DNA of 53,612 nt from Amoeboaphelidium occidentale (lineage: Eukaryota > Aphelidiomycota > Aphelidea), in contig JALGPX010000065.1 in NCBI GenBank assembly GCA_023515795.1, forward strand, positions 1 to 53,612, written 5' to 3'. Made by a program: the position numbers and the translations under genes. The notes below the pieces were generated by a model, which ran no database searches, was not told where the DNA came from, and saw nothing but the letters and a program-made list of their open reading frames with translations. Shown here piece by piece: positions 44,196-49,781 of this stretch. Within the stretch, counting starts at the first letter, position 1, and every line of letters begins with the position of its first letter.

Positions 44196-44905
44196 TCACC
44201 TCTTCCTGCGTAAAGCAAAGGCGAGCATGGTTGGAAGATCATTTAAATCAGGTAGGAGATGCTCCTCCAAAGATTCTTTGCCAGCTACCATAAGGTCGAT
44301 GCATCTGTCAATTGAATTTTCTGAATTCACTCTCTTTGAAGGTTGCATTGCGCTTTGATCAGCCATACTAAATGAATTGAATGCACCTGCCTGGGCAGTG
44401 GGCGTGTCTTGCTTACGCTTTCTTTTCTTTCTCTTTGCTTGAATGAGCCTCATCTCTTCAAGACGCATGTCCTTTCGGAACGTTTCATGTGTGACTTTGT
44501 ATATTCTCTCAGGTAGAACCATATTATCATTAAGATTCTCATCCTGACATGCGGTCCCGTGGTCATCGATATGCCCTCCTTGTATTTCAGATACAGTAGA
44601 AGTTCTTGTGCACAGCTTTCTGCTGAAACCATACGTGCTCAGACATCTCAGGAAGCCAGTCAATTTATGTCCAAACGTATTCTGTAAGAAAGCTTCGGTT
44701 ATTGGGTCTTCTCTGAACTCAAATACAAAGCCAGGCTCGGTAGACCAGTACATGCTGCCATGATTCTTTGGATCATTCAATGCTCTGAGACGTCAGGGTG
44801 CTTCTAAAAAATTTACATGTATAGCTTTTTTATGAATGAGCCTTCATCTGTAGAAGCTGTTGGCGTAGCAGCAGAGCTCAGGCCATCGGTTGTAAATGCG
44901 TCCAT
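44196..44905 (-). CDS. Divergent HSF-type DNA-binding protein
   Basis: Exons 44817-44905 and 44196-44784 (32-nt intron) encode 225 residues. The winged-helix HSF fold is recognisable: SFIKKLYIALND, MYWSTEPGFVFEF, then the recognition region TGFLRCLSTYGFSRK, where canonical HSFs have SFVRQLNMYGFHK. The DNA-contacting Arg is kept but the Gln and Asn neighbours are Cys and Ser. No trimerisation coiled coil like that of true HSF is obvious. Instead a long basic helix (KRKKRKRKQD, about residue 145) acts as nuclear signal or extra DNA contact. It is divergent from the WD40 receptor kinase, with 99 bp between starts. Role unknown. Confidence 0.75.
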
Positions 44906-45004: not shown

Positions 45005-48000
45005 ATGGCCGCTCTTTCACTCTCAGGATTACTGATCGCATTCCTCTTGCTTCCTATGGTTTCAATTGCTCTTGATCATGAAAAGAGCATCTTGACTTTG
45101 CGTAAGTATTCCTTTGATCATCGGATCTAACCTTTTCAGCATATATGAGCAATATATACTGTATTAAATCATACCAAGGCTCTCTTCTGTACACTTCAGG
45201 CAACGATATTGTTCAGAGAGATGATTTTACCGGTCTGGTACAACGAGTCTTCAGGGCACACACTGATGAAGTCTACTCCTTCTTGATCAAAGACGAACAA
45301 ACACTCATTTCAAGCGGCTGGGATGATATGTTGATCTTGTGGGATATGTTGTCTGGTTCCATCATCAGAAGAATTAAAGCTGATACTGTTATGTCGATTC
45401 GTTCGATAGATGTGTCGGCTGATCTGGTTTTCGTAGCTGGTGGAAATGGTCAAGTCAGAGGAATCAGTCTTTCAACCGGCAAACCTCTTTATGTGCAATG
45501 TAAACCACGCTCAGACCAAAACTCATTTCTTAGCCTTTACAGAGGTAGCCAATTGCGTAAAGTATTTTAAAGGGCAATTGTATGTTGGGGGTTCATTCGA
45601 CTCAGGAGTCGTGAAATTGGATGCGGCTACTGGCAGATTTGTTTTGACTTTTGAAGGTTGCTCTTTTTAATAATGTTTAAACTTTTAGGTCAAAATGATG
45701 TAGTGTACTCACTCGATGTGCTCCAAGTCTTGGTAACGGCCAGTGGTGACAGAACCTTGAGAATCTGGAATCAAACAACAGGCAATCCTCTTGGAACAAT
45801 TGGCGGCCTTCAAAGTCCACCGTACGCGGTTGCTATCGATTCAGAGAATATCTTCGCCGGACTATCTGATGGAGATTTAATCTCGTGGGCTCTTTCTACT
45901 CTTTCCCAAAGATGGGCCAAAGAACCCGCTCATAATGGAGGTATCATCTCAATGGAACTCAAAGATGGCAAATTGTTTACCGGATCGCTTGATAGCGAAA
46001 TGGCAATATGGGACTTAGGCTCTGGGGACCTTTTGGCCAACCAAAATGGTATTGATTTAATTTTTCGAAGCTTATTTTAGGAACGAATAAGAAATTGCGC
46101 TCGGTTGCTGTTTGGAAGCAACTGGTTTTGCAAGCAGGAGAACAAAATTCGATTGTAGTTTGGTCAATACTTGAAGATGAGGAGCCTGTAACTACTCTTA
46201 TACAACATACCGCTTTTGTGTATGCTTTATTAATTCATGTTGACACTCTTTTCTCCGGAAGCGGTGATAAGAGTATAAAGCACTGGAATTTGACGTCTTT
46301 TGAGTTTTTGAAGACATTCCTAGGTCACCAGTCGCTGATTTACACATTAGATGCAGCTTCCATGAATCTGTATTCTGGTGATAGCCTTGGTGTTATAAAA
46401 ACGTGGGACATTGAGACTGGTATCGAATCGAATTCTTTAATTGGGCATGATAAAATTGTTTCAGTTCTGAAAGTTTGGAACGGTGACATCTTTTCAGGAA
46501 GCTACGATGCGACTGTAAAGCGTTGGAATGCGAAAACATATGCGATGATTTATCTTAACCCATGTAAATTTCCGAACGGTTCTCACTTAATTTTATAGTT
46601 GAATATGAAGTTCTCAGCATTGTTATAAATATGGATAAAGTTTACGTTGCTTCGTTTGGTATCTTTGTATTTCCAATTCAAGAACCATCGCAAATATCCG
46701 AAAGCATAGACAAAACTCCAGTTTATTCAATTGTTTTGGCAGGAAGGGGGATCTTCTGTGGGAGAGAAGACGGCGTGATAAGCTTAATCTTTAAAGATAC
46801 ACTGAGCCCACTTTCGAGTTTCATTGGGCACACATCAGCTGTGATGTCTTTGGTCTTAGACGATTCAGGTTTACTGTATTCAGCTAGTTTTGATGGAACA
46901 GTAAAGAAGTGGGATATGGCTAGCAGAAGAGTCGCATTTTCTTTTGAAGATCGAAGTCTTGCAGTTTTATGTTTGGGTGTTTGGCGCGGTGAACTACTTG
47001 TCGGGCTTAGAGGTGGTGACATCGTGACATACAGTGTACAAACCGCAACATTCCTTTGGAAAGAAAAGCTGCATGACGGTTCAGTGACTGCCATTGCATT
47101 GAAAGATGATCTTTTACTCACATCCGGATCAGATGGTATTCTTTCACAAAAAGATTTATTAAGTAACGATCGCACTATACTTCATGACTACAGCTCGTTA
47201 CCAATAAGATCATTCTCTCTCGGTAATCATAGCATAGTATTATTGCAGGGAGATACTTATATTGTACAAATTTCAACAGAAAGGTCTTTCTCAAGTACAA
47301 TTATAGAAATTGCTGTTCCTGCTAAATCTCTATTTGCAAGTAATGATACGATTTTTGTTGGCTCGATTAGTGGTATTGTAATGGCTCTAAGTATCGATTC
47401 TGGTGATATGTTGTTTGAGCTTCGAGAACATACAGCACCAGTAAATTCCTTCGTCCTTTTCAACGGCATCTTGTTTACCGCTTCGGAAGATAAAACTATA
47501 GTGATGTGGTCATTGGAATCAAAAAGAGCTGTTAACACACTGGAAAGAACCTCCATGTTGTCACTTGGCCATGCTGGTCCCGTGAAAGATATAGCAATTT
47601 GTAATGGCGTTTTATTTTCTGTGAGCTCCGATATAACAACGAGGAGGTGGAATGCAGTCAGAGGCACGCATGAGGCTGTTTATTATGGCCATTCTAAAAC
47701 AATTACAACTGTTAAATGTTTCAACGGATCTGTATTTACTGGAAGCGAAGATTTTTCGGTATTAATGTACCGTCCTTCCCTTCCTGATTTATCACAACCA
47801 ACTAAGATATCTACAACTACATCTTTGCGATCAAGAGGTCTAGGTGTAAAGATCATTATGCGATCATCTTTAGGAGAAGAACAATCGTCTTTACAAGCTT
47901 ACATCGTCGCAATAGGTTTGGCGATTTCTTTCATCCTGGTGGCTATAGCTGCAATCTTTACTTTAAATTTCTCAAAACTCATGCGGAGTGCAGGAAATGA

Positions 48001-48769
48001 CGAGGGAACCAATATGACCGTGGGACCTTCCTTTATGTTAACTGGACTGGAAACTCTGATAAACACATCTAAAGGTTTATCAATGCATGCAGCATTAGAA
48101 TTAAAACCAGATGCATTTATTACATTGCGCATGTTTGCTGCAGGAGGAGGAGGTTCTTTGTATTTCGTTGAAGCGCAAGATCCAACGTTGGTAGAGCAGC
48201 ATGGGAAAATTCTGGTGCAAAAGATAATTTTTAACAAAGGCCGTACAACTGTTGAAATGTTTCATCAAGAAGTTGCTATTATGGTGATGCTTGGAGATTA
48301 CCCGCATTTCTGCAAGATTGTTGGATACACTGCTGAACCATTGTCCATCATTATGAAATATTATTCTAAAGGCTCTCTGAACATATGGATGCTTTCAAAC
48401 AAATTGTCTAAAGTCAAGATGGTTAAAATTTTAAAGGAAGTTTCCAAAGCTTTACAAGTTATGCATGAACATCACTTGGCGCATTGCGATATTAAGACAC
48501 AGAACGTTTTAGTCGAAATGGAAAACAATTTACCCTCTTGCTTCTTGAGTGATTTTGGAATAACTCAAGTCATGTCAGAAGAGGCACTAGCAACGAAGGC
48601 TTTCAATGTTATCAATGCGCGTGGATTATCATCGCCTTATGCATCCCCTGAATCTTTCATCAATGCGCGAAAAAGATCATATATTAATGTAGACTTCAAG
48701 ATGTATGATTTGTATTCTTTGGCATGTCTTATGTTCGAGGTGATCACTCGAGAAATAATCTGGAAATAA
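45005..48769 (+). CDS. WD40-ectodomain transmembrane receptor-like protein kinase
   Basis: Six exons (45005-45101, 45140-45499, 45534-45656, 45689-46048, 46081-46563, 46599-48769; introns 38, 34, 32, 32 and 35 nt), all joined in phase 1, encode 1197 residues. MAALSLSGLLIAFLLLPMVS is a signal peptide. About 870 residues of WD40-like repeats follow, roughly 18 units such as SGSGDKSIKHWNL and SASFDGTVKKWDM, enough for two or three propellers. A transmembrane helix lies at about 907-932 (IVAIGLAISFILVAIAAIF). The kinase domain has a Gly-rich loop (AAGGGGSLYFVEA), K1016 in VQKII, HCDIKTQNV (D1105) and DFG (D1126), plus SPE. The protein stops after helix F (EVITREIIWK), lacking the last C-lobe helices. 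Activity is therefore uncertain. Function unknown; topology implies an extracellular sensor. Confidence 0.85.
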
Positions 48770-48827: not shown

Positions 48828-49781
48828 ATGACAAATTACAGCGCTGAAGATGAGAAGGTAATATAACTCTTAAACCATTCGAACAAATCTAAACATAATA
48901 AATCTTAGATTGTTCTAGAACCGTTCACTTACTTGTGCCAAATAAAGGGAAAGGAAGTTCGAACTCTGTTAATCAAGGCGTTTGATCAGTGGCTGAAAGT
49001 CCCTGCACGCGAGCTAAACGTTATAACGGAAGTTGTTGGTATGCTACACAACGCTTCTCTACTAGTGGATGATGTTGAAGACAATTCCCTATTGCGCAGA
49101 GGCATTCCGGTTGCGCACAAGATTTTTGGTGTTCCGCAGACAATTAACTGTGCCAACTACGTATACTTTCTGGCGCTAGAAAAGATAACTAAACTAAATA
49201 ATATTTGTCTACTGAAAGCATTTACAGAAGAACTCTTGAATCTTCACATTGGACAAGGAATGGATATCTCATGGCGTGACTCGAGCACATGTCCATCTGA
49301 AACAGAATACTTAAAAATGATTGAAAATAAGACTGGAGGCTTACTAAGACTCGCAGTGAAGTTAATGCAATGCTGTTCAACATCCACGGAAATGAGGGAC
49401 AAGGATCTGATGAAGCTCGTGAATTGTTTGGGCAGATTCTATCAGATTAGAGATGATTATCTTAATGTACAATCCACCGATTACATGAAGAACAAGAGTT
49501 ACTGCGAGGATTTAACAGAAGGAAAGTTCTCTTTTCCGATTATTCACTGTATTAATAATAGCCCGGAGTACGGAAAGCAGTTACTAAACATTTTAAGACG
49601 CCGTCCAACTGACGATGAAGTCAAACGATTTGCTGTGAGTCTGATGGAGAAGTCAGGCTCATTTGTATACACTTTAAGCGCCCTGGAACAAGCCAAAAAG
49701 GAGCTCGTTTCAGAGTTTGAAGAAATAGGTCCCAATGAAGAATTAAACGCCATCCTTAAATCTTTGTTCTTGCTGAAATAG
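48828..49781 (+). CDS. BTS1: Geranylgeranyl diphosphate synthase (Bts1-type)
   Basis: Exon 1 (48828-48857, MTNYSAEDEK) and exon 2 (48909-49781), separated by a 51-nt intron, encode 300 residues. The first Asp-rich motif is DDVEDNSLLRRG and the second is DDYLN, the pattern of short-form eukaryotic GGPP synthases. GRFYQIRDDYLNVQ, YCEDLTEGKFSFPIIH and the absence of a presequence agree with cytosolic GGPPS. It makes C20 prenyl donor for Rab and Rho proteins. The start is only 58 bp after the kinase stop on the same strand. Confidence 0.93.

Follow-up and report, generated by a model that had tools for sequence, protein, structure and literature searches.

The plant receptors FLS2, EFR and Xa21 pair a leucine-rich ectodomain with a complete kinase domain. 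Non-RD kinases have been tied to innate immune signalling, and EFR is among those described as non-RD (PMC8463890). Proteins that carry both kinase and WD40 domains have been observed only rarely in eukaryotes (PMC11032199). In bacteria, the same source describes planctomycetotal WD40 serine/threonine kinases (Ca. Uabimicrobium amorphum, Gemmataceae and Saltatorellus) as membrane kinases whose kinase domain is predicted to be cytoplasmic. The gene considered here is located at 45005..48769 on the forward strand of a 53,612-nucleotide stretch of DNA from the aphelid Amoeboaphelidium occidentale (contig JALGPX010000065.1, assembly GCA_023515795.1), the whole of which is called the window below. 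It encodes a predicted receptor with WD40 propellers, a transmembrane helix and a kinase, a combination that is unusual among eukaryotes. We consider it probable (roughly 0.6) that the protein is a type I membrane receptor kinase belonging to a lineage-specific repertoire, so far found in A. occidentale and in environmental sequences.

Domain layout and predicted membrane topology

The gene is described by a six-exon model that runs from an ATG at 45005 to a TAA stop codon at 48767-48769 and yields a protein of 1197 amino acids, in agreement with the single spliced gene and the coordinates originally proposed. As judged from sequence and structure models, one polypeptide would combine a signal peptide, a multi-propeller WD40 ectodomain, one transmembrane helix and a cytoplasmic kinase. 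Three features define its membrane-proximal and cytoplasmic parts:

47903..47959, forward strand: transmembrane helix, residues 910-928, hydropathy 2.97, the sole internal peak
48047..48094, forward strand: conserved juxtamembrane motif, residues 958-973
48113..48766, forward strand: kinase domain, residues ~980-1197, ending with helix aF

For comparison, 40 non-redundant copies from the A. occidentale genome were read, the window's included, together with two divergent members (L056 and L057) that also bear WD40 repeats. In all 40, a single strong hydrophobic stretch precedes the kinase, and the mean positive charge is higher on its kinase side. The N-terminus of the window protein is hydrophobic, and a hydrophobic core of at least 1.8 is present at 18 of 23 N-termini (the tally excludes the copy that follows L028); two fall just under this value and three annotated starts lack such a core. 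These predictions are consistent with a type I single-pass receptor whose N-terminus faces outward. In the juxtamembrane motif, T960, N963, G967 and A972 are invariant in the 40 copies, and S969 and H971 are conserved in 39. This segment reads GIS.HAA in most of the copies, and a counterpart, PA.LE or PA.KE, is recognisable in L056, L057 and the proteins P0132 and P0133.

Copy L045 (1200 residues from its first methionine) and copy L058, which pair in the kinase tree with support of 99/95, carry the signal peptide, repeats, transmembrane helix and kinase in one uninterrupted frame. Because two copies encode the whole protein in this way, the domains have not been joined artificially, and separate genes for the WD40 and kinase parts were rejected. 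The same frames speak against separate transcripts for the two parts, the outcome that the original prediction had named as decisive against it.

Pfam matches to WD40 (PF00400, 115.9 bits against a cut-off of 27) and to β-propellers cover residues ~33-859 of the window protein, in keeping with WD40 repeat proteins, in which such repeats form seven-bladed propellers. A count of about 18 repeats had been put forward at the outset. The structure model of L045, a paralogue 33% identical to the window protein over its full length, instead places 84 strands in the ectodomain, equivalent to 21 predicted blades, which probably make up three seven-bladed propellers. The strand that follows the signal peptide probably completes the propeller to which the C-terminal blades belong. 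A grouping into blades 1-7, 8-14 and 15-21 may be envisaged; one set of matches spans residues 312-582 and another takes both ends, 16-869.

The exons and introns are arranged as follows:

45005..45101, forward strand: exon 1, signal peptide (residues ~1-22), then the LDHEKS strand
45102..45139, forward strand: intron 1, 38 bp, phase 1, ahead of blade 1
45140..45499, forward strand: exon 2, blades 1-3
45500..45533, forward strand: intron 2, 34 bp, phase 1, boundary of blades 3 and 4
45534..45656, forward strand: exon 3, blade 4
45657..45688, forward strand: intron 3, 32 bp, phase 1, boundary of blades 4 and 5
45689..46048, forward strand: exon 4, blades 5-7
46049..46080, forward strand: intron 4, 32 bp, phase 1, boundary of blades 7 and 8
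46081..46563, forward strand: exon 5, blades 8-11
46564..46598, forward strand: intron 5, 35 bp, phase 1, boundary of blades 11 and 12
46599..48769, forward strand: exon 6, blades 12-21, transmembrane helix, juxtamembrane motif and kinase

All five introns are thus 32-38 bp long and in phase 1. The choice of introns is not unique, as 45 open-frame splice combinations were present among those enumerated. The model above is supported by its exon lengths, which agree with an intronless paralogue, and by nearby introns in annotated relatives. Specifically, none of exons 2-5 (120, 41, 120 and 161 residues) departs in length by more than one residue from its counterpart in L045. The annotated protein P0076 has introns after residues 152 and 488 and P0074 has one after residue 479, compared with residues 152 and 474 for introns 2 and 5 of the window gene; the relatives' positions are approximate, being read from the ends of BLAST pieces. 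To within one residue, each of introns 2-5 falls where strand d of a blade ends, and their spacing from the preceding intron (120, 41, 120 and 161 residues) corresponds to 3, 1, 3 and 4 blades. The earlier suggestion that phase 1 introns would suit repeat growth therefore fits the finding that introns 2-5 mark blade ends. The family mixes intronless members with members that have up to five introns, and further single frames of ~1170-1250 residues are found on C114, C133 and C143. With two positions seemingly common to relatives and other members intronless, the pattern of introns and blades is probably old.

Downstream in the window, a polyprenyl diphosphate synthase gene, which we take to be of the geranylgeranyl type, is located at 48828-49781 on the forward strand and is interrupted at 48858-48908 by an intron of 51 bp (start and intron chosen by eye). 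Upstream of the receptor gene, at 44196-44780 on the reverse strand, there is an open frame of 194 residues with a basic KRKKRKRK stretch.

A kinase domain that ends after helix aF

The most distinctive feature of the family, which the original prediction did not notice, is the end of the kinase. The Pkinase profile (PF00069) matches the window protein with 71.1 bits, against a cut-off of 31.7, over positions 22-198 of 263, and the match stops at the last residue of the protein. Within this span the domain is well preserved. The glycines of the loop, K1016, E1032, HCD1103-1105, N1110, DFG1126-1128, D1178 and W1196 (window numbering) are invariant in all 40 copies, and these include the hallmarks of eukaryotic protein kinases, namely the VAIK lysine, the aC glutamate, HxD with its asparagine, and DFG. 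With the subdomains of a typical eukaryotic protein kinase defined as in PMC5217372, VIII and IX are present: the proline is found in 40 copies of 40, the glutamate in 39 and the aF aspartate in 40, and the window protein reads SPE. Subdomains X-XI (helices aG-aI), which c-KIT, BRAF and CTR1 possess as typical eukaryotic protein kinases, are absent, and each of the 40 proteins stops 1-8 residues after the invariant tryptophan at the end of aF. Despite the short form, 172 of 272 residues in the kinase structure model have a predicted local distance difference test score (pLDDT) of at least 90. The last residue of the model aligns to c-KIT 871, BRAF 657 and c-Src 464, and presumably ~60 residues, corresponding to helices aG-aI, are left out of the window kinase.

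This ending extends beyond the copies read. Among 32 further protein ends, mostly from metagenomes, 31 stop at most eight residues past the last tryptophan. When the genome was searched with Pfam and stop codons were read through, the 20 best Pkinase rows reached at least position 248 of 263, whereas 17 rows overlapping the receptor family ended at 198-231, with 16 of them at or before 214. Rows that end at 308-311 in the search with the transmembrane-plus-kinase segment are no sign of truncation, as the query itself ends there.

All three stop codons are in use at the 40 kinase ends. The next gene starts 58 nucleotides past the stop in the window (start codon by eye) and 87 nucleotides past that of copy L014. 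No C-lobe match above 3.1 bits was found downstream in three frames of the 40 copies, although this is a weak profile test: in the controls one of five complete kinases reached 8.7 bits and the rest at most 2.7, and one copy had just 47 nucleotides of downstream sequence. Readthrough or a hidden last exon was rejected on the basis of the close next genes, the downstream C-lobe test and the Pfam rows obtained when stop codons were read through. Similar peptides do occur downstream of the stops (141 BLAST hits between paralogues, with frames counted apart), but they were rejected as a continuing exon; in nine copies inspected they are the start of the next tandem copy.

Selection on the domain was assessed from the ratio of nonsynonymous to synonymous substitution rates (dN/dS). 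This ratio is 0.07-0.18 for the kinase, a rough estimate as most dS values exceed 1, and is below that of the ectodomain in all four pairs for which both could be estimated. Mean pairwise identity is 0.401 for the ectodomain versus 0.590 for the kinase. A recent pseudogene end was rejected, since all 40 copies end alike and purifying selection is stronger on the kinase than on the ectodomain. Because the end is the same across copies and the kinase ratio lies below that of the ectodomain, selection appears to maintain the short form.

The catalytic loop is of the non-RD type, with HCD in place of HRD in every genome copy read. Among 57 other family proteins, 51 have HCD and one has HSD; the motif was not found in five. 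No claim can be made that HCD is commoner here than in other kinases, as 31 of 37 matches outside the family also carry it, a share that probably stems from a search favouring shared words.

A large family with several types of head

The genome of A. occidentale is reported to comprise 13.56 Mb, with an N50 of 73,507, a guanine-cytosine content of 39.93% and 7,495 proteins (PMC10608142). Our searches covered 11.3 Mb in 204 contigs, which is part of the full assembly. The annotated proteins P0004, P0074, P0076 and P0085 match loci in this part at 97.7-100%; P0003 has no near-identical match there (best 51%). With the last 712 residues of the window protein as query, 62 other places were found at 33-45% identity (63 of 433 candidates scored, the window's own included). 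Of these 62, 58 extend to query position 711-712 and four end at 658-698. With the arrangement of the last exon preserved at these 62, the gene is not a product of chance. The transmembrane-plus-kinase query gave 127 matches, with 99 at 100 bits or more, again counting the window's own; these comprise 65 core rows at 220 bits or more, 27 divergent rows below 170 bits and seven in between, some of them fragments. Many members are clustered, with up to seven rows on one contig. The original prediction of a possible uncharacterised class of surface sensor is retained as far as the predicted layout is concerned; the gene does not stand alone and belongs to a large family in the aphelid.

Among the public gene models in the clusters, several seem to be fusions or wrong joins of copies. 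P0001 starts with the kinase of one copy and continues into the next, P0087 (2054 residues) has a similar appearance, and P0061 has an unrelated start.

The same short kinase also carries other heads. P0132 of A. occidentale has Kelch repeats and a serine/threonine-rich stalk ahead of the transmembrane helix, and the metagenome protein P0133 has SBBP (and NHL) repeats, with repeat matches that are weak and above the cut-offs. Their Pkinase matches end at profile positions 198 and 193 of 263, respectively. Relatives of the Kelch type are present in the searched genome, for example at C162 and C73, and the one at C73:54907-57492 sits among clustered WD40 receptor kinases, on the strand opposite to theirs. 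The tree places P0132 and P0133 next to L057, a divergent member with WD40 repeats; the branches there are long and the support is moderate.

Protein searches that need shared exact words revealed no such kinase and layout outside A. occidentale and metagenome proteins; the first scored 7,994 candidates, in a collection where the presence of other aphelid proteomes is uncertain. Judged by titles and the starts of abstracts, a scope that does not extend to the aphelid genome paper of Mikhailov et al. 2022, paper searches brought up no eukaryotic receptor kinase with extracellular WD40 propellers, nor anything recognisable on aphelid WD40 kinases. The best matches outside the family include plant proteins named as FLS2, EFR or Xa21 types, and plant matches show 26-34% identity across 41-91% of the query segment. 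A tree of 52 rows, built with RLK/Pelle placement in mind and carrying a long-branch warning, separates 47 family rows from five outgroup rows (three from plants) with support of 100/98.

Possible function and comparison with known systems

The predicted signal peptide would send the receptor into the secretory pathway, where ~21 WD40 blades would come to face outside, one helix would cross the membrane and the kinase would lie inside. The kinase, a non-RD form that ends after aF, keeps residues expected for ATP binding, magnesium binding and phosphotransfer. The diverse propellers may recognise ligands, of which algal hosts, prey or kin would be the most likely bearers, and the repertoire perhaps serves the recognition of algal hosts. 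Clustering could then let the kinase act, phosphorylating either within a dimer or together with a partner that contributes the docking of substrates; alternatively, the kinase might allosterically switch on a partner kinase. A partner or dimer mate is likely to be needed because every copy read lacks the closing portion of the C-lobe. Because the catalytic residues are invariant, we give catalytic activity somewhat better than even odds.

Several observations weigh against this reading. The copies read cover 40 of the 63 places, and the divergent protein P0130, from which the end of the near-identical L056 was judged (its own stop lay outside the sequence read), has a tail of 24 residues after the tryptophan, still without a C-lobe. 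A recognition arms race might give a hypervariable face on a binding propeller; no sharply hypervariable face was seen, with strand b lowest at 1.52 bits and the a-b loops highest at 2.39. Nor was positive selection seen in the dN/dS of the eight closest of 780 pairs. The ectodomain parts of the 40 copies hold 153 N-glycosylation sequons where shuffling predicts 182, and the enrichment that would have pointed to an extracellular site was not seen. The receptors could also lie in an inner membrane. Finally, activity of the short form cannot be assumed, as an allele of the plant Raf-like kinase HT1 with Q287stop, which would remove subdomains X and XI, is listed among recessive alleles (PMC4892718).

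These points bear on several further readings. That the superfamily dropped aG-aI, helices present in ordinary protein kinases and, as at least one plant kinase allele suggests, needed by them, and yet signals catalytically, with the docking part coming from a dimer mate or a common partner, is a tentative view that we hold at a little under even odds. The shortened kinase might instead be an ATP-binding scaffold without catalytic activity, working through docking or allostery while a separate partner kinase provides the output. We regard this as a serious but doubtful proposal, in line with the absence of aG-aI and the HCD loop in all 40 copies, with the HT1 allele, and with the allosteric activation of BAK1 by the non-RD receptor EFR (PMC11259431, PMC8463890). 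The invariance of the catalytic residues in these copies, including the DFG and HCD aspartates, argues against it. Pure scaffolds often lose such residues.

Placement in an inner membrane (endoplasmic reticulum, phagosome or vacuole), with luminal propellers sensing folding state or digested food, is unlikely in our judgement. A type I layout suits it equally, the sequon counts agree with it, and IRE1 and PERK also couple a luminal sensor to a kinase; the size of the family and the greater divergence of the ectodomain would fit many ligands better. It is very improbable that the stop codons mark decaying copies or that the remainder of the kinase lies hidden behind an intron. Some transmembrane-plus-kinase rows are indeed fragments, and a few places found with the last 712 residues have internal stops. 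Against this stand the common end reached through three different stop codons, the low dN/dS of the kinase, the nearby downstream genes and, as a weak test, the downstream C-lobe scan.

If the superfamily does signal catalytically without aG-aI, it would represent a distinct minimal receptor kinase design in which WD40, Kelch and SBBP heads are plugged onto one shortened kinase. A. occidentale is an amoeba-like parasitoid of the green alga Scenedesmus, and a family of this size among ~7,500 annotated proteins would constitute a major sensory apparatus for such an organism. For kinase biology, it raises the question of phosphate transfer by a kinase that lacks aG-aI and has been kept so in many genes. 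Aphelids have been placed as the sister group of Fungi (PMC10608142).

Among known proteins, the plant non-RD leucine-rich repeat receptor kinases share an ectodomain, one transmembrane helix and a cytoplasmic HCD-type kinase with the aphelid family. Tandem WD40 propellers are also found in AIP1, Utp21, Gemin5 and Trm734, although these are intracellular proteins without the layout of signal peptide, transmembrane helix and kinase. The planctomycetotal kinases resemble the aphelid receptors in that their WD40 arrays are mostly outside the cytoplasm and that the kinases have undergone a large lineage-specific expansion, and Ca. Uabimicrobium has a phagocytotic lifestyle (PMC11032199). They are bacterial, however; bacterial WD40 kinases match the aphelid family only weakly, and the passages covered make no mention of a short kinase end. 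Their order is also the opposite one, as the original prediction had stated: Ca. Uabimicrobium kinases carry WD40 or TPR domains at their C-terminal ends (PMC11032199), whereas the aphelid repeats are N-terminal. By analogy, we conjecture that the parallel with a phagocytotic bacterium may reflect convergent use of propellers in prey recognition.
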